Shown here: positions 11,107 to 53,151 of the stretch, one piece after another
How positions within the stretch are numbered: the first letter of the stretch is position 1
Layout of the letters: the number at the start of each line of letters is the position of its first letter
NCBI GenBank assembly: GCA_001820875.1
Contig: MHRF01000001.1
Span: 1 to 56,841, forward strand
Source: Candidatus Taylorbacteria bacterium RIFCSPHIGHO2_01_FULL_46_22b
GTDB taxonomy: Bacteria; Patescibacteriota; Minisyncoccia; Phycocordibacterales; DSPV01
Direction: 5' to 3'
Length of the DNA: 56,841 bases
Notes under the pieces: generated by a model
The model's database searches: none
What the model was told of the DNA's origin: nothing
Seen by the model: the letters and a program-made list of their open reading frames with translations, nothing else
Made by a program: the position numbers and the translations under genes

Positions 11107-11543
11107 TAAACCTTCAACTGAATCAAGTGCATATAGTAAGTGTGACACTCACATTTCCTAATAGGAAGATTCGACGAATTAGTATTCCTCGGCTTAACAC
11201 ATTACTGTGCGTACACCTAGAACCTATCAACGTGGTCATCTTCCACGAGTCTCAACGATTCCTAATCTTGAAGACGGCTTCGCTCTTAGATGCTTTCAGA
11301 ACTTATCCGTTCCCGACATAGCTACTCGGCAATGCTCTTGGCAGAACAACCGATAGACCAGAGGTCAGGTCTTTAGGGTCCTCTCGTACTACTAAAGAAT
11401 CTTCTCAAGAATCAACGCCTGCAGTAGATAGGAGACCAACCTGTCTCGCGACGGTCTGAACCCAGCTCACGTAACTTTTTAATTGGCGAACAGCCAAACC
11501 CTTGGGACCTTCTCCAGCCCCAGGATAAGTTGAGCCGACATCG

Positions 11544-11899
11544 TATATTTCCCCATTATTACTAACTCGTGCCTCAAAGAGGTCGAGCCCCGCGATCTGA
11601 AAATAATTTTCAGATCTTTGGAGTGGTATGGACTATATCTTCATCCTTTGCGTAAAACACAAAGGCGTTGGCGTTTTAGCCCGAATAATAAATTATTCGA
11701 ACTCTGACCTGAATGGTCAAGTCTCTACGGGGTCAATCAGCAAAAAGCTGACGACTTCCCACGGTATTGTCCATGGATTATTTACCCATGGAGTCCACCG
11801 TTATAAGCCAATAGTTTTGTTCTAGCGTAATTGGGTTCAACTCCAATAAACTACGCCAAAACGGCTAATACAATTACTTGTATGGAACCCCGAAATTTG
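11544..11899 (-). ncRNA. group I intron in 23S at E. coli position 2500 (no ORF)
   Basis: It interrupts the universal GGCACCTCGATGTCGG peptidyl-transferase sequence after U2500. P1 forms between exon ACCT and intron GGGGT, with the expected U-G wobble at the 5' splice site. Core elements on the minus strand: GGCTTATAACGGTGGA, ATACCGTGGGAAG, GACCCCGTAGAGACT (R/P7) and GATATAGTCC (S/P7). 356 nt, no reading frame. The core is clearly related to the L1931 intron. Oddity: the last intron base before C2501 is A, where group I introns almost always have G. Confidence 0.85.
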
Positions 11900-12449
11900 A
11901 GGTGCCGAACTCCGCCGTCGATATGGACTCTTAGGCGGAACTAGCCTGTTATCCCCAGAGTAGCTTTTGTCCGATGAGCTCCGGCCGCGTCTAATGCGTA
12001 CCGTCGGATCACTTAGTCCTGCTTTCGCATCTGCTTGGGATGTCCCCCTCACAGTTAAGCCAGCTTGTGCCTATACACTATCGGCACGGTTTCCATTCGC
12101 GCCTAGCTGACCTTAATGAACCCCTCCGTTACTTTTTAGGAGGGTAGCGCCCCACCAAAACTACCCACCAGGTACTGTCTCTCGTCGTTTTTGCCGACGG
12201 GGTTAGCATACAAATCAAAACAGAACGGTGTTTCATCGTCGGATCCATGCCACCCGAAAGCGACACTTCAAATCCTACCGTCTACGCTACGCAGTCAAAA
12301 TGTGTATGCAATACCAAGTTGTAGTAAAGCTTCTGGGGTCTTTTCGTCTAACTGCAGGTAACCGGCATCTTCACCGGTACTGTATTTTCACCGAACGAGT
12401 CCCCGAGACAGTTGCCCAGTCATTACACTATTCGTGCGCGTCGGAACTT

Positions 12450-13195
<746 letters not shown>

Positions 13196-14012
13196 GATTA
13201 TAGTTATCGCCGACATTCACCAGGGCTTACAACAATCACCATGAAAATCTTGCGACTCTCACAACGTCATTGTTTGACCTTCTGGCATTGGTCAAGTGTC
13301 ACCCCCTATACATCCTCTTACGAGTTCGCAGGGAGCTGTGTTTTTGATAAACAGTTGCCAGGCATACTTTCGCTGCGGCCACACGTGCCTTGCGGCAGTG
13401 CGGCAGGCCTTATTCCGAAGTTACGGCCACTTTTTTGCCGAGTTCCTTGGGGACCTCTCATTCGTTCGCCTACGTCTACTCGACGTGATCACCTGTGTCG
13501 GTTTGCGGTACGGTTCCTTCCTGTTTATGCTTAGAGAATTTTCTTGGAAGCGCGCTTTGTCTCATTCCTTTCCGCCGAAGCGGAAAAGTTTTCGCTGTGC
13601 TTGGAGTTCCTGCCTTGCGGCAAGGTGTGTCCGGATTTTCCTGAACACCCACCTGACACCACGAACATCAAATCCAATAATGTGCGAGACATACTGCACT
13701 CCGTCCTCCCAATCGCAACAGTGAGGAGTCACGGAATATTAACCGTGTGTCCATCGGGTCCGGCTCTCGCCATCCCCTTAGGGCCGACTAACCCTTGGCT
13801 GATCTTCATTGCCAAGGAAACCTTGATCTTTCGGCGTCCGCGATTCACACGCGGATTGTGGTTACTTGTGCCAACATTCTTACTTCCACACGCTCCAGAG
13901 TGGCTCACGCCTTCTCCTTCACAGCAGAGTGGAATACTCTCCTACCACTTGAAAGCTTCATTGATAGTCCCATCGTACTCGTTTCTTCACGAAACGAGTA
14001 CGATGGGCAGAT

Positions 14013-14089
14013 TGGTGGCTGTTGTGAGATTTTTACTCACAGTCTTCGCCTTAAGCGGGCGACGCTCTTGTGCATTGAGCTATACAGCC
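14013..14089 (-). tRNA. degenerate tRNA-Lys(CUU)-like element
   Basis: 77 nt with an acceptor GGCTGT/ACAGCC, discriminator A, encoded CCA, D stem GCTC/GAGC, anticodon arm TCGCC-CGCTTAA-GGCGA and T stem GTGAG/CTCAC. The shape is a normal tRNA with CTT anticodon, but three near-invariant features are lost: position 33 is G not U, the D loop AATGCACAA lacks GG, and the T loop is TAAAAAT, not TTCAAAT. The D-loop/T-loop contact could not form normally. It starts 3 nt after the CCA of the Pro-like gene. Probably a pseudo-tRNA, or a tRNA mimic kept as a processing signal. Confidence 0.6.
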
Positions 14090-14092
14090 AAT

Positions 14093-14220
14093 TGGTCGGG
14101 GCGGTTGGATTTGAACCAACGACCTCTGCCAGGAATTCAGGACTTGGCAAGCCGAAGGCTTGTATTCCCCAAACGCCACGACTCGACGGGCAGCACGCTA
14201 CCAAGCTACGCTACGCCCCG
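14093..14220 (-). tRNA. tRNA-Pro-like gene with a greatly enlarged anticodon loop
   Basis: Acceptor CGGGGCG/CGCCCCG with discriminator A and encoded CCA, D arm GCGTAGCTTGGTAGCGT, and T arm GTTGG-TTCAAAT-CCAAC are typical of bacterial tRNA-Pro. The anticodon stem CTGCC/GGCAG is intact but encloses 58 nt, not 7. The heptamer TTTGGGG, a proper Pro(UGG) anticodon loop, is embedded inside without a flanking stem. The extra sequence contains a CAAGCC-TTC-GGCTTG hairpin. It could be an intron-containing tRNA or a decaying or repurposed one. The insert is too short for a group I intron. Confidence 0.65.
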
Positions 14221-14235
14221 ACACTAGAGATTAGT

Positions 14236-14321
14236 TGGCGGATGGGACAGGAGTTGAACCTGCATGAGCTTGCGCTCGACGGTTTTCAAGACCGTTGCCT
14301 TACCATTCGGCACACCCATCC
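14236..14321 (-). tRNA. tRNA-Ser (UGA) inside the 23S helix 45 insert
   Basis: Minus strand: acceptor GGATGGG/CCCATCC, discriminator G, encoded CCA. The D arm has GCC/GGC with GG in the loop. The anticodon arm is ACGGT-CTTGAAA-ACCGT, with T33 and anticodon TGA. A long variable arm is GAGC-GCAA-GCTC, and the T arm is GCAGG-TTCAACT-CCTGT. All class II Ser features are intact, so it looks functional. It is transcribed only as part of the 23S precursor, since I see no separate promoter. Confidence 0.93.
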
Positions 14322-14987
14322 TGCCAATAAATCAAATGTACAAATTTTTTCTATCAATGAAGCTTTCAAGTCCTCAGTTTCGGTACCATGCTTAAGCCCC
14401 GATCATCTTCGGCGCAGAATCTCTCAATAAGTGAGCTGTTACGCTTTCTTTGAATGATGGCTGCTTCTAAGCCTACATCCTTATTGTCTGAGAAATTCCA
14501 CCACCTTGAGATGCACTGAGCATGGATTTAGGGACCTTAAATGGAGGTGCGGGCTGTTTCCCTTTTGACCAGTGGAGCTTAGCCCCCACGGTCTAACTGC
14601 GAAGCTGTGACTTTCAGTATTCGGAGTTTGATAGGTCTCGCGGTCTTTCGACCTGTCGGGACCTTCCAGTGCTCTACCCCTGAAAGGAACACTTCACGCT
14701 AGCCCAAAAGCTATTTCGGAGAGAACCAGCTATTACCAGGCTCGATTAGCTTTTCACTTCTTATCACAAGTCATCGGAGTGTATTGCACGGCACAACCGT
14801 TCGGGCCTCCATCTGTCTTTCGACAAACTTCACCCTGCTCATGACAAGCTCGCTCTGGCTTCGGGTCTGATGCATGCGACTGACGCGCTATTAACACTCG
14901 GTTTCCCTACGGCTCCGTCCGACCAGCGGACTTAGCCTTGCCGCGTGCATCAACTCGTTGGCTCATTCTTCAATAGGCACGCTGCTA

Positions 14988-15177
14988 CGGTTTGCACACT
15001 GTGCACTTAATAATGTTATCTGTTGAAAGGTGGGTGGGAGTCTCCGAGTAACCAGAGACTCCCACTTTTGCGGGTTACCCCAAGTGATGCACCGCAACGG
15101 TGCAACTTTCAGCTCTTTAGCTAAATGGAGGTCCGAACCCACGTTTCAACAGATAAAAATGCACACTGTGCAAACCG
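14988..15177 (-). other. intervening sequence in 23S helix 25
   Basis: Outer arms CGGTTTGCACA (14988-15005) and 15160-15177 pair over 17 of 18 positions. An inner stem joins 15016-15035 to 15137-15156. Between them are an 11-bp hairpin GTGGGAGTCTC/GAGACTCCCAC (15035-15066) and TGCACCG-TTG-CGGTGCA (about 15090-15106). Flanks match E. coli helix 25 (GAAACC...TACAAG on one side, GCGTGCC on the other). Helix 25 is the other classic site for RNase III-removed intervening sequences. No ORF or tRNA is recognisable inside. Confidence 0.75.
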
Positions 15178-15234
15178 CTGCAACTCCTTGTAAGCATATG
15201 GTTTCAGGTCTATTTCATCGCCCTTACCGGGCTG

Positions 15235-15271
<37 letters not shown>

Positions 15272-15812
15272 ATCTCCAAAAGTATTTAGCCTTACCGGTT
15301 AGTTCCGGCAGATTCCTCCGAGCCATTCGTGTCTCGAAGTACTTAAGAAAACCAGCAAAAAAGATTTTGAATTTTCGCTTACGGGGCTATCACCCACTGG
15401 GGCCAAGCTTTCCAGCTTGTTCAGCTAACACAAAATTTTGTAACTTTTCTCGCAATAAATTGCGACGCTGATTCCTTGCAACCCTGAACCTTAATGTTCC
15501 GATGCACCCGAAGGCACACCGAAATATTAAGGGCCAGTTTAGGCTTCTGCGCTTTCGCTCGCCGCTACTCACGCAATGACAATTGTTTTCTCTTCCTCCA
15601 GGTACTGAAATGTTTTACTTCCCTGGGTGCGCGCTCTCACCTTGCGGTGAAAGTCATCAAGGTTTACTTGATGGGGTTTCCCCATTCGGAAATCTCCGGA
15701 TCAAAGGTTGCTAGGCACCTCCCCGAAGCATATCGCAGCCATGCTACGTCCTTCATCGCCTTTTGGAGTCAAGGCATCCACCATACGCTCTTAGACTTCC
15801 TATTAGGAAATC

Positions 15813-46189: not shown

Positions 46190-49100
46190 CTAGTTTTTGA
46201 GTTCAAAATCCCCTGAAGATGAGCTACCGTGCATGATTGCCGACAGAGACGTCACTTTCTTTATTTCCATTTCAAATTCCTGCAACAAACCTGTTTTTGC
46301 GACTTCTGAAGAAGTCAGAAGTGTTGCCATTTCTCCCTGCTGTAATCCTTTTTCTTTTCGTAACTCCTGAATTGTTCGAATTATTTCGCGCACATCCCCT
46401 TCTTTCTTCAATTCAGGTGTTATTGCCACATCAAGCTCGACATCACCGGCGATTTTTTCATCAACCAAAATCTTCTTAACATTCACTTCGTCTTGTATCA
46501 AAGCCAGCAACTCTGCATTTTTTTGTATTCCAGATTCATTATTCTTTATTCGTAGTGTTGCAAGCGGTTGCCGAACTTTTATATTTGCTTTCGCCCGTGC
46601 TTCAAGCGCAAGCGAAACAACTTTTCTCACTTCTGACATATCTTCCAAAATACCCTGATCGCTTTTCGCTAATCGCTTTTCGCTTATGTTCCGCCACTCC
46701 TCCAAATGCACACTTTCTCTCTCCCCCTTTGCGCTCTGATAAAGATAATCAGCGAAGAACGGCGTAAATGGCGCCATGAGTTTTGAGAGCTCAAGTAGGA
46801 CAAACCGCGTCGTTACCAATGCACTTGCTTTGTCTTTTCCTTCTTCTTTAAACCGATCGCGAGAACGGCGGATATACCATTGCGACAAATCAGCGATGAA
46901 ATCACGAATCGCGCGGGCTGGTTCAAGTAATGAGTAACTCTCAAGCCCTTTGGTTACTTCTGCCGTAAGTTGGTTAAGTCGCGCAAGTATCCAACGATCA
47001 AGTATATGGAGCGAGAGATTTGAATCTGAAGGCAAGAGTTTCGAGGGAGAAGCTGGGGCATAGAGTTGGTAGAACGAAAGGACGTTGGATGCAAGGTTAA
47101 ATACTTTTTTCACGACTTCATCCACCGTCCGTTCATCAAAGTTCTTCGACTCTCCGGGCTGATTGATTGAATACATCCAGAACCGAAGCGGATCAGCTCC
47201 ATATTTCTCCATCATCAGTTGTGGATCAACTACATTGCCAACTGACTTCGACATCTTCTTCCCTTCTGCATCGAGAATATGCCCAAGACAAATTGAATTT
47301 TTGAATGCCTTCCCTTTTCCCATGAGCGCGCCAATAGCATGCAGTGTGTAAAACCACCCACGAGTCTGATCAATTGCTTCACAAATAAAATCAGCGGGGT
47401 ATTGCAATTCTCGTTTACCGAATGGAAAATGATCCTGTGCAAACGGCATCGAGCCTGAATCAAACCAAACATCCATGACTTCTTTCACCCGTCTCATCTC
47501 CCCCCCACACTCGCAAGGGAATGTAACGGCGTCTATATACGGCCGGTGCAAATCTAGTTCGAAATTCTCATTGCGCGGAATTTGCTTGAAAGTGTAGCGC
47601 TTAACTTCAGCATTATCGATAAACTCAACCCCGCGATTCTTTATTACCAGAGTCCCCCCGACATCAAGACCCTCCATAGCTGATTCCATCATCCAAATCA
47701 CCCCCTCGTGACTAACAATGAGTATTCGTTTCCCTTCGTATTTTTGGTCGATCTCTTTGAGAAATGCGCCAACACGATTTTTTGCTTCTTGTCGATTCTC
47801 GGCACCTTCGGGCGCTTTCAAAAAGATAATCGCACGCGGGTCATGACTAAAAAAAGAAATGTAGTCATCCACTGTTTTACCCTCATACGTCCCGAATCCA
47901 AGCTCGCGCAGACGATCATCAAATATAATTTTTTCGCGCGGATATCCGATTGCGTCTGCAATAATCTCCGCGGTTTCTTTCGTCCGCACAAAAGGAGAAG
48001 CGAAAACAACATCAATTTGTTCTTTTGAGAGCTTCTCTCCTGTTGCCTGCGCTTCCTCCTTGCCAAGTTTAGTCAAATGAAATTGCTTTGAAATATCAGA
48101 ATTGAGTGTGTTCTCCACGTTGTTCTCCGATTGTCCGTGACGCACCACAAAAAAATCGTTGCGCGGCTTTTTTGAAATATCTTCAATTGAACCTGCAACT
48201 TTCTGCTTCTTGCATTGTTCACACACCCACACAGGCAGAGGCGTTCCCCAATAGCGCTCGCGCGAGATCGCCCAATCTTTCACTTCTTTAAGCCACTCGC
48301 CAAATCGCCCTTCTTTGATATATGACGGTTCCCAATTGATGCTTTCGTTTTCTTTCACCAGTGAATCGCGCAAAGCAGACATTTTGATGTACCACGAATC
48401 GCGCGCGAAATAGATAAGCGGAGTTTTACAACGCCAACAATGCGGATAGCTGTGTTGATATTTTTCCTTGTGAAAAAGGAGACTCCCCGATGGCCGGTTG
48501 GCTAAATCTTTAATAATCGACACATCGGTTTCCTCCTGCTTCACAAACTTCCCGGCCAAGAATCCTGCTTCTTTTTTAAACGTCCCATCTTCATTTACCA
48601 AATGATATTTGGGCAAGCCAACTTTCGTTCCCAATTCAAAATCATCCTGTCCATACATCACTGCAGTATGCACAATTCCTGTTCCATCCGCGGTCGTCAC
48701 AAAATCCGCCGCATAGACTTTATAGGCATTCGTGAGTTTCACCTTTTCAGGACCCGAAATATTTTCTTTGATAAACGGGTAGAGCGGTTCGTATTCAAGA
48801 CCCACAAGGTCTTTTCCTTTGTATGTTTCGTTTATTGAATATTCTTTGTCTAAAATAGAAAGTCTTTCTGTCGCGAGAATATACTTTTCTTCACCCCCTT
48901 TCACACGCACGACAACATACTCAATATCCTTCCCAATTGCGAGTCCTACGTTCCCCGGCAATGTCCATGGCGTAGTTGTCCAAGCCAATAAAAAGGTGTT
49001 CTCTTGTCCGACAACTTTGAATTTCACCGTCACCGAAAGATCTTTAACATCTTGATATCCCTGCGCCAGTTCGTGCGAGGAAAGCCCCGTGCCACAACGC

Positions 49101-49648
49101 GGGCACCATGGCACCACTTTGTAATCTTTGTAGAGCAGGCCTTTGTCGTTGACTGTTTTTACAATATTCCACAATGACTCAATGTATTCCGGTTTATAAG
49201 TTATGTAAGGATTTTTGAGATCAACCCAATACCCCATCCGCTCGGTAAAATCCTCCCACTCGTGAACATATTTCCACACACTCCCTTTGCATTTCTCATT
49301 AAACGCCGCGAGACCATATTGTTCTATTTCTTTCTTTGATTTCAAACCAAGCTCTTTTTCAACAGCAATCTCAACGGGAAGTCCGTGGGTATCCCATCCC
49401 CCTTTCCGACGCACATGAAATCCGCGCATCGTTTTGTAGCGAGGGATCGCGTCCTTGAACGCGCGTGCTTCTAGGTGATGAATACCCGGTTTTCCATTTG
49501 CAGTCGGAGGACCCTCAAAAAATATAAATTCCCTGCCGGAATCCTTGTTTTTCTCAAGCGATTTTTCAAAAATCTGATGTTCACGCCAAAAAGAGAGCGT
49601 TGAAAGCTCTTGTTCGCTTAGCTTACTTTTTGCTGGTTTTTCACTCAT
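46190..49648 (-). CDS. ileS: isoleucyl-tRNA synthetase with an inserted histidine-phosphatase domain
   Basis: 1152 aa class I synthetase of the eukaryote-like type. HIGH region GPPTANGKPGIHHLEARAF (46-64), editing domain about 200-385 (WTTTPWTLPGNVG), KMSKSVGN (798-805), C-terminal anticodon domain. Between the zinc-type VCEQCKK (475-481) and the conserved DLHRPYIDAVTFPCECGGEM (699-718), where normal IleRS has about 20 residues, there are about 195 extra residues (about 496-690). They form a histidine-phosphatase (phosphoglycerate-mutase-like) domain with FFVVRHGQSENN (R503-H504-G505), FASPFVRTKETAEII, LRELGFGTYEGK and LIVSHEGV (H647). All catalytic residues of that family are present. A short dispersed repeat lies in the C-terminal coding region (46657-46685). 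What the phosphatase does here is unknown. Confidence 0.95.
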   Translation of the reverse strand: MSEKPAKSKLSEQELSTLSFWREHQIFEKSLEKNKDSGREFIFFEGPPTANGKPGIHHLEARAFKDAIPRYKTMRGFHVRRKGGWDTHGLPVEIAVEKELGLKSKKEIEQYGLAAFNEKCKGSVWKYVHEWEDFTERMGYWVDLKNPYITYKPEYIESLWNIVKTVNDKGLLYKDYKVVPWCPRCGTGLSSHELAQGYQDVKDLSVTVKFKVVGQENTFLLAWTTTPWTLPGNVGLAIGKDIEYVVVRVKGGEEKYILATERLSILDKEYSINETYKGKDLVGLEYEPLYPFIKENISGPEKVKLTNAYKVYAADFVTTADGTGIVHTAVMYGQDDFELGTKVGLPKYHLVNEDGTFKKEAGFLAGKFVKQEETDVSIIKDLANRPSGSLLFHKEKYQHSYPHCWRCKTPLIYFARDSWYIKMSALRDSLVKENESINWEPSYIKEGRFGEWLKEVKDWAISRERYWGTPLPVWVCEQCKKQKVAGSIEDISKKPRNDFFVVRHGQSENNVENTLNSDISKQFHLTKLGKEEAQATGEKLSKEQIDVVFASPFVRTKETAEIIADAIGYPREKIIFDDRLRELGFGTYEGKTVDDYISFFSHDPRAIIFLKAPEGAENRQEAKNRVGAFLKEIDQKYEGKRILIVSHEGVIWMMESAMEGLDVGGTLVIKNRGVEFIDNAEVKRYTFKQIPRNENFELDLHRPYIDAVTFPCECGGEMRRVKEVMDVWFDSGSMPFAQDHFPFGKRELQYPADFICEAIDQTRGWFYTLHAIGALMGKGKAFKNSICLGHILDAEGKKMSKSVGNVVDPQLMMEKYGADPLRFWMYSINQPGESKNFDERTVDEVVKKVFNLASNVLSFYQLYAPASPSKLLPSDSNLSLHILDRWILARLNQLTAEVTKGLESYSLLEPARAIRDFIADLSQWYIRRSRDRFKEEGKDKASALVTTRFVLLELSKLMAPFTPFFADYLYQSAKGERESVHLEEWRNISEKRLAKSDQGILEDMSEVRKVVSLALEARAKANIKVRQPLATLRIKNNESGIQKNAELLALIQDEVNVKKILVDEKIAGDVELDVAITPELKKEGDVREIIRTIQELRKEKGLQQGEMATLLTSSEVAKTGLLQEFEMEIKKVTSLSAIMHGSSSSGDFELKN

Positions 49649-51435: not shown

Positions 51436-53151
51436 TTACATTTTCTCTGGAATCTGAACGCCAAGTATCGAAAGTCCTGTTTCCATCACCATTCGAAACG
51501 CTTTCGTAAGCGCGATTTTATATGCAGAAGCAGAATCGCTTTTATCTACAATCTTTTCGTTCGCGTAAAAATTATTGAACGTACCTGCAAGCTCAATTAA
51601 ATAGGTTACCAAGTGATGTGGAGCATATTCCTTACCTGCTCGCTCCACTATTTCACTAAAATGCACAAGTGTGCGTTCAAGTGCAAAAACGCTTGTCGGA
51701 ACAGTTTGAACATCGGCAGACACACCTTCATTTTCCGCTTTTGAGAGAGCCGACTGTGCGCGAGTTGAGGCATATTGCAAGTATGGTCCTGAATCCCCTT
51801 CAAACGAAATTGATTTATCAAAATCAAACACAATGTCTCCCCCGATTGCCTGCCGTAAAATCGAATACTTTATTGCTCCGATACTTACCAATTCGCCGAT
51901 TGTCTTTTTAAGAACCGAATCATAGTCGCGATCTTTTATTTTCTCCTCAACCAATGTGTGAACTTGGCTCACCAGTGCATCAGCAGTAATCACATCGCCC
52001 GAGCGAGAAGACATCTTCCCGCTCGGGAGACGCAACATGCCGTGAGACAAGTGCTTAACTTTTTCAGCAAGTTTCGGATCTATCTGTTTGAATGCTTCAA
52101 GTCCTACAGTAAATACCGCATCCTGTTCGTTTGCGGTAATCACCACGGAAATGTCGGACGGATATTTCTTTTCTTTAGCAAGATGAAGTCCAAGCTCTTT
52201 TGCTTCATAGGTGGGAATCCCCTGCGAAGTGATGTACACCCGCGTATGAAGCTTAGGATTATATTTCTCGCCGTGAAATACGATCGCGCCTTCACTTGTT
52301 TCAAATATTCCTTTCTCCAGAAACTTTTTGACAATAGAAACTCCTGCTTCGGCCATCTCGCTCTCGAAGAAATAGAAATCAAATTTGGTGCCAAGTTTCT
52401 TGTACTGTGTCTCAAAATACTCCAGTGACACCTTTCTTCCCCAGTCATAGAGTTTATTCACTTCGCTGTCGGAACGGTCATAAATTTTCTTATTCAGTCC
52501 GTTGATATCTTCTTTGTGTCCATCTTCATACGCCGCAGCGCCAAGCGCATACGCATGTCCTAAATACCGAGCTTTGCCGGTCAAATCAAGCTTTTCAAGC
52601 GGGGTGCCTTCGCGTATTGGGACACTCTGCATTCCCCAGATGGCCTTCGCAACATGAAGTCCGACATCGCCCTGATAGCACGCACGCTTCACCTCTGCCC
52701 CCTGCGCCTCAAACAATCGTGCAATTGATTCACCGATCGTATTCGACATCAGATGCCCAATATGAAATTCCTTGAATGGATTCGGGTCGGTATATTCCAC
52801 CATCACTTTTTTGCCAGCAAGATTTTTGTTTTTCCCAAAATTTCCCTTGGCCGAGATAATCTCTGAAACCGCATCCGAAAGATATTTTCTTGAAAGAAAA
52901 AAGTTGATGAAACCTGCACCCGCAACTTCGATCTTCTCAATTCCCTCTGGTAGATTCCTCTGGAGTTCTGCGACAAGCTCTTTTGCAAACACTACTGGTG
53001 CTTTTTTGACCTGTTTTGCCACAACAAGTGCAACATTGGTCGCATAATCGCCGTGCTCAAAATCTTCAGTTCGCTCAACAGAAAAAGAAATGTCTCCAAG
53101 GGCTTCCCCTACGGATTGTGATATCGCTTTGTGTATCAAGTCCCGAATCAT
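51436..53151 (-). CDS. argS: arginyl-tRNA synthetase
   Basis: 571 aa class I synthetase. N-terminal Add-1 domain (1-105), HIGH motif in PNPFKEFHIGHLMSNTIGES (about 123-142), the SAM-like MLRLPSGKMSSRSGDVI segment in place of KMSKS (about 380-396), and the DALR anticodon domain from about 455, ending IVDKSDSASAYKIALTKAFR and LGILGVQIPEKM-type tail. Charges tRNA-Arg and needs bound tRNA for amino acid activation, as known for the family. Terminator 53182-53217 upstream isolates it from pgm. Confidence 0.97.
   Translation of the reverse strand: MIRDLIHKAISQSVGEALGDISFSVERTEDFEHGDYATNVALVVAKQVKKAPVVFAKELVAELQRNLPEGIEKIEVAGAGFINFFLSRKYLSDAVSEIISAKGNFGKNKNLAGKKVMVEYTDPNPFKEFHIGHLMSNTIGESIARLFEAQGAEVKRACYQGDVGLHVAKAIWGMQSVPIREGTPLEKLDLTGKARYLGHAYALGAAAYEDGHKEDINGLNKKIYDRSDSEVNKLYDWGRKVSLEYFETQYKKLGTKFDFYFFESEMAEAGVSIVKKFLEKGIFETSEGAIVFHGEKYNPKLHTRVYITSQGIPTYEAKELGLHLAKEKKYPSDISVVITANEQDAVFTVGLEAFKQIDPKLAEKVKHLSHGMLRLPSGKMSSRSGDVITADALVSQVHTLVEEKIKDRDYDSVLKKTIGELVSIGAIKYSILRQAIGGDIVFDFDKSISFEGDSGPYLQYASTRAQSALSKAENEGVSADVQTVPTSVFALERTLVHFSEIVERAGKEYAPHHLVTYLIELAGTFNNFYANEKIVDKSDSASAYKIALTKAFRMVMETGLSILGVQIPEKM

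Follow-up and report, generated by a model that had tools for sequence, protein, structure and literature searches.

Few enzymes have been studied as much as aminoacyl-tRNA synthetases, and the presence of extra domains within them is known in kind. The nearest synthetases of the Protein Data Bank to the enzyme reported here were two type-2 isoleucyl-tRNA synthetases (IleRSs), IleRS2 of Priestia megaterium (8c8w) and the enzyme of Thermus thermophilus (1ile), with a Foldseek E-value of 3.8e-88. The scaffold, the editing motifs, the KMSKS motif and the anticodon-binding and C-terminal domains were shared with them, whereas a histidine phosphatase (HP) domain of about 195 residues occupied the place at which they carry a short linker between zinc ligands. 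Among other core information-processing enzymes, RNA polymerase has been described as hosting the lineage-specific insertional domains BEAN and HABAS, with polyphyletic insertion (PMC11515920).

The features of the locus under study are listed below; the window designates the whole stretch of 56,841 nucleotides that was analysed, and all coordinates refer to it.

51436..53151, minus strand: argS, the upstream neighbour of ileS (Pfam analysis of the window ORF)
46190..49648, minus strand: ileS, encoding a type-2 IleRS of 1152 aa with an internal HP domain
48212..48223, minus strand: first pair of zinc ligands, C476-x-x-C479 (sequence and alignment)
47576..48163, minus strand: inserted HP domain, residues about 496-691 (Pfam PF00300, AlphaFold and Foldseek)
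48134..48142, minus strand: RHG motif R503/H504/G505, with H504 as predicted phospho-acceptor (sequence and alignment)
47702..47713, minus strand: SHEG motif, residues 646-649, with H647 as second catalytic histidine (sequence and alignment)
47507..47515, minus strand: second pair of zinc ligands, C712-x-C714 (sequence and alignment)
47243..47257, minus strand: KMSKS motif (residues 798-802), C-terminal to the insert (sequence and conserved columns)

The ileS frame started with ATG, ran over 1152 codons with zero internal stops and was the sole IleRS gene of its genome (G000, 98.7% complete). The protein passed the NCBIfam ileS model TIGR00392 (904.9 bits for a cut-off of 621.4) and matched the Pfam domains tRNA-synt_1 (1.7e-116) and Anticodon_1 (4.9e-31). 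Sequence inspection, conserved columns and Pfam identified the HIGH-like motif GIHH, the KMSKS motif, the editing segments TTTPWT and GTGIVH and the anticodon domain, and AlphaFold modelled the full-length protein with a mean pLDDT of 89.8 and a pTM of 0.82. The window protein is predicted to be a working type-2 IleRS that would charge tRNA-Ile. The position of argS upstream of ileS was retained, with two small ORFs between both genes. Assignment to the mupirocin-resistance synthetases MupA and MupB was rejected (NF000257 and NF000258, 811 and 807 bits for a cut-off of 1900), as was assignment to ileS_w_GNAT (NF040702, 334 bits for a cut-off of 1999), Pfam giving no GNAT match in the window protein.

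An unusual organization was also observed in the 23S rRNA gene of the window (11158-15804, minus strand), which spanned 4647 bases versus a model length of 2925. It contained an ORF of 173 aa (12423-12944, minus strand) matching LAGLIDADG_1 endonucleases (1e-25), suggesting an rRNA intron. Two tRNA-like genes (14016-14089 and 14236-14321) lay inside it on the same strand; one of them was identified by ARAGORN as tRNA-Ser(UGA), and the site was near positions 1187-1231 of RF02541. To our knowledge, it is unusual for a 23S insertion to harbour a tRNA.

The HP domain of the window IleRS was delimited by His_Phos_1 (PF00300) at residues 500-665 (1.5e-35, 123 bits for a cut-off of 21.7). Since it lay between C476/C479 and C712/C714, presumed zinc ligands by analogy with established IleRS structures, the zinc-ribbon linker was interrupted. 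The initial annotation had claimed that a complete HP was inserted in an otherwise intact IleRS, with an RHG motif at 503-505 and a SHEG motif at 646-649, and both motifs were confirmed with their catalytic residues. Its preference for an insertion likewise held, an end fusion being excluded by the synthetase motifs present in frame on either side. The possibility of an assembly join, which it had raised, was eliminated by the recurrence of this architecture in independent assemblies, including that of a congener (L009) and most of some 40 genomes of the same order. The catalytic set of PF00300 was complete (R503, H504, R555, E582 and H647), and further conserved HP residues were found at N510, S551, E617 and R625. 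Modelled alone, the insert adopted an HP fold (pLDDT 92.7, pTM 0.91), the top PDB match of which was the phosphoserine phosphatase 4ij6 (TM 0.83); the lack of such a fold, the second condition under which the initial annotation would have failed, is thereby excluded. Taken together, these features suggest a catalytically competent branch-1 histidine phosphatase. Function-specific models all remained below their cut-offs on the window protein, namely those for PspA phosphoserine phosphatase (NF045917, 61 bits versus 350), CobC alpha-ribazole phosphatase (TIGR03162, 78.7 versus 162.9), SixA phosphohistidine phosphatase (TIGR00249, 35 versus 74.5) and archaeal-type dPGM (NF038349, 85.2 versus 225).

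A search for the same architecture in other ileS genes, also proposed in the initial annotation, was performed on 188 genomes drawn from the class of the window. An HP was embedded in the IleRS of 120 of them (a few on partial contigs), a related HP was encoded as a separate gene (trans form) in 11, and the remaining 57 had neither form, so that the module is dispensable. Most class genomes sampled thus carried an IleRS with an embedded and apparently active phosphatase. The architecture was found in most of the 40 same-order relatives searched, two of which (G031 and G024) had an uninterrupted IleRS of 974-980 residues. Outside the class but within the phylum, it was detected in 17-18 of about 180 genomes. 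Carriers among the matches listed in a contig scan included Wolfebacteria, Yanofskybacteria, Nomurabacteria, Peregrinibacteria and Kerfeldbacteria, which suggests that the window too comes from Patescibacteria; a contig of 8466 bases from a MAG labelled Spirochaetia (L142) was also among the carriers and is probably misbinned Patescibacteria. On this sequence evidence, the coupling of HPs to IleRS or valyl-tRNA synthetase (ValRS) appears recurrent in Patescibacteria, its restriction to the phylum being drawn from the matches listed only. The insert was the only HP of the genome in 60 of the 120 genomes with the embedded (cis) form, and the trans gene was the only one in 9 of 11. A single HP unlinked to ileS was found in 13 of the 57 genomes without a link, one of which (G183) carried it in ValRS. 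The status of sole HP fits a task tied to IleRS, but also a generic phosphatase housed there.

The trans form showed a characteristic gene order. In seven genomes with an insert-free IleRS, an HP ORF of 183-209 residues occupied the position immediately before ileS, with argS on its other side, and the upstream neighbour was argS by Pfam in 8 of 8 loci tested. The HP stop codon overlapped the ileS ATG as ATGA in three loci (L108, L109 and L111), suggesting co-production of both proteins. HP genes linked to ileS without being contiguous were found in L220, L221 and the Nealsonbacteria locus L172, and unlinked ones in G108 and G173. Trans and cis HPs had in common two subfamily-specific residues, N497 and an aromatic residue at 499. 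In addition, the trans HP of L112 grouped with the insert of L071 (support 93 in a quick tree, 94/76 in a careful one), and those of L220 and L221 grouped with the insert of L083 (support 86). Insert-free genomes often encode the same HP subfamily separately between argS and ileS, and the genomes form a natural series for a domain passing between a separate gene and an inserted module. As a distinct observation, an ordinary PhoE-like HP gene of Urinicoccus massiliensis (L199:6232-6840) began 3 bases past the end of the ileS frame.

Embedded HPs were not limited to the zinc loop of IleRS. All large synthetase ORFs found with an HP were IleRS or ValRS; seven ValRS proteins carried one HP and a single one (G270) carried two, in a part of the fold equivalent to that of the IleRS insert. 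The same genome encoded an IleRS of 1451 aa (L105:2638-6990) in which a GNAT acetyltransferase followed the WFESGAMP segment and an HP followed KMSKS, its ValRS with two HPs being found at L106. The IleRSs of Peregrinibacteria and their relatives contained two different HPs in tandem. First and second copies each formed a group of their own, that of the second copies being closer to PhoE and CobC. In a large HP tree built with a quick support method, the exact values of which are unsure, these second copies were separate from the main insert lineage (support 90), as was a second insert lineage comprising L027, L030, L036, L076, L081 and L084 (support 98). We read these HPs as stemming from several lineages, which would correspond to several independent acquisitions. 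A further ORF of 437 residues (L236:1867-3177, G392) had a C-terminal HP and an N-terminal part that was membrane-like and DedA-looking by appearance only.

The catalytic residues were conserved in nearly all copies. Residues R503, H504, G505, N510, S551, R555, E582 and H647 were invariant in 30 same-order inserts, and the catalytic R/H/R/E/H set was retained in 94-96 of 96 inserts, the gaps being due to truncated loci. It was likewise retained in 12 of 12 trans genes (three of them with Asp in place of Glu) and in 12 of 12 tandem copies (the acidic residue being E or D). In the ValRS copy of L099, a Ser was aligned at the position of the second catalytic His. A close pair of trans genes displayed a dN of 0.043 and a dS of 0.385 (dN/dS about 0.11); in close cis pairs, HP dN was well under dS, but dS was near saturation. 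Conservation of the catalytic residues excludes a degenerate HP and disfavours a purely structural role, an option that the initial annotation had left to the insert.

In the synthetase-core tree, genomes with the insert, with the trans gene or with none were scattered, and the starred branches cannot be reconciled with fewer than 19 changes of the insert label. The HP tree conflicted with the core tree at strongly supported groupings, L012 being placed with L019 (100/98) and L051 inside the L039/L143 group (98/90), and the module or its flanks have therefore recombined. The window gene (L001) and that of its congener L009 shared only 40% identity in the HP versus about 80% in the flanks, a pattern suggestive of an HP swap; this swap is not claimed, because sisterhood of the two HPs was not rejected by the AU test (p = 0.177). 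Identities between the IleRSs of L042 and L044 rose from 58% in the N-terminal part to 69% in the HP and 77% in the C-terminal part, which suggests mosaic recombination within the gene. Frequent gain and loss, together with fast HP divergence, could also reflect a permissive insertion site.

That a phosphatase predicted to be active works together with IleRS and ValRS is well supported by these comparisons. Restriction to these two synthetases and co-translation with ileS argue for a link to their reaction, and this link looks selected, since independent HP lineages have reached the same two synthetases and a single subfamily occurs both in cis and in trans. Our main reading, to which we give a probability of about 0.5, is that the zinc-ribbon loop of the window IleRS hosts a competent HP, one instance of a recurrent phosphatase tied to IleRS and ValRS, embedded or co-translated, that has a local clearing role. 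A phosphomonoester would be hydrolysed through a phosphohistidine at H504, with participation of H647, R503, R555 and E582. With low certainty, the substrate may be small, diffusible and phosphorylated, a compound inhibiting or reversing the IleRS or ValRS reaction or accumulating beside it; a nucleotide product and a phosphorylated mimic of the aminoacyl-nucleotide are candidates. Such a diffusible substrate is favoured over channelling from the synthetic site because HP positions vary (zinc loop, after KMSKS, in tandem or as a separate protein), and the clearing activity would stand outside the steps of aminoacylation proper. A further proposal can be put forward tentatively: IleRS and ValRS of Patescibacteria would possess an exchangeable third active site, in which a repeatedly recruited HP destroys a phosphorylated inhibitor or reverses a phosphate modification and thereby protects both enzymes. 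If true, tRNA charging would have a hitherto undescribed layer of self-protection or quality control.

The main rival to a local clearing role, possible but doubtful in our view, is a hosted metabolic phosphatase, for instance PspA-like or PhoE-like, whose job is unrelated to charging and which merely ended up inside, or on one transcript with, a highly expressed neighbour. Insertions would then simply be tolerated in the zinc loop, with an argS-HP-ileS cluster as donor. A generic cellular need is conceivable given that half of the cis genomes have no HP besides the insert; moreover, the trans gene adjoins argS as well as ileS, and the closest solved relatives act on small molecules. However, it is not readily explained in this way why HPs of several lineages entered one synthetase pair, ValRS included, why large synthetase ORFs with an HP were exclusively of these two types, why a sole HP unlinked to ileS was rare, or why start and stop codons overlap in a manner that suggests co-production. 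An unlikely explanation is that the HP reverses a phosphate modification placed on the synthetase or the tRNA by a toxin-like kinase or transferase, the synthetase carrying its own immunity. The fast divergence, the repeated gain, loss and replacement and the tandem HPs resemble an arms race, and HPs acting on phosphoproteins, such as SixA and PGAM5, are known elsewhere. Antagonism of a HipA-type kinase was nevertheless rejected, HipA_C being detected in none of the 188 class genomes, which leaves other kinases or outside attackers, and the HP resembled the small-molecule enzymes PspA and PhoE more than SixA.

Still less probable is the removal of pyrophosphate or AMP, which would pull aminoacylation forward in cells without soluble pyrophosphatase. 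Family I soluble pyrophosphatase (PF00719) was indeed not above cut-off in the window genome and in 148 of the 188 class genomes, i.e. about four fifths of them. Its presence was not associated with that of the HP (22 of 120 cis versus 15 of 57 HP-free genomes; Fisher p = 0.24), a result that concerns family I only and by which pyrophosphatase substitution was discarded; the restriction to IleRS and ValRS would also be left unexplained. We consider least probable of all a structural or allosteric domain that merely binds a phosphorylated metabolite, its catalysis being vestigial. An insertion in the zinc ribbon could change domain motion, and the Ser substitution in the L099 ValRS copy would agree with such a role, but the catalytic set was otherwise kept, both tandem copies included. 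The trans genes, which cannot be structural parts of IleRS yet keep the catalytic set, argue further against vestigial catalysis.

A literature search, beyond the reach of which most subscription papers lay, yielded no description of an IleRS or ValRS with an internal HP. New here are the separate-gene HPs beside ileS, the ValRS HPs, the tandem HPs, the one IleRS with its HP at another site, the existence of several HP lineages and the frequent status of the insert as sole HP of its genome. The occurrence of HPs in IleRS, in ValRS or next door suggests that an accessory reaction, not described so far, is coupled to tRNA charging, and that some phosphorylated compound or phosphate modification matters when minimal cells charge isoleucine and valine.

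With the small branch-1 HPs PspA (4ij5/4ij6), PhoE (1h2e) and CobC (6nru), the window domain shared the fold and the catalytic residues. It differed from them by its low identity (about 21-26%), by scores under every function-specific NCBIfam cut-off and by its location within a synthetase, and the insert subfamily had residues of its own, namely N497, often S or C at 517 (mostly G in others) and often W652. Like ileS_w_GNAT, the window protein combines an IleRS with a second enzyme domain, but this domain is a phosphatase instead of an acetyltransferase, and both occur together in the relative L105. A parallel also exists with BEAN and HABAS (PMC11515920): in both cases, domains were inserted polyphyletically into a core information-processing enzyme, while the host enzyme is a different one here and the insert is itself enzyme-like, with a conserved catalytic site.
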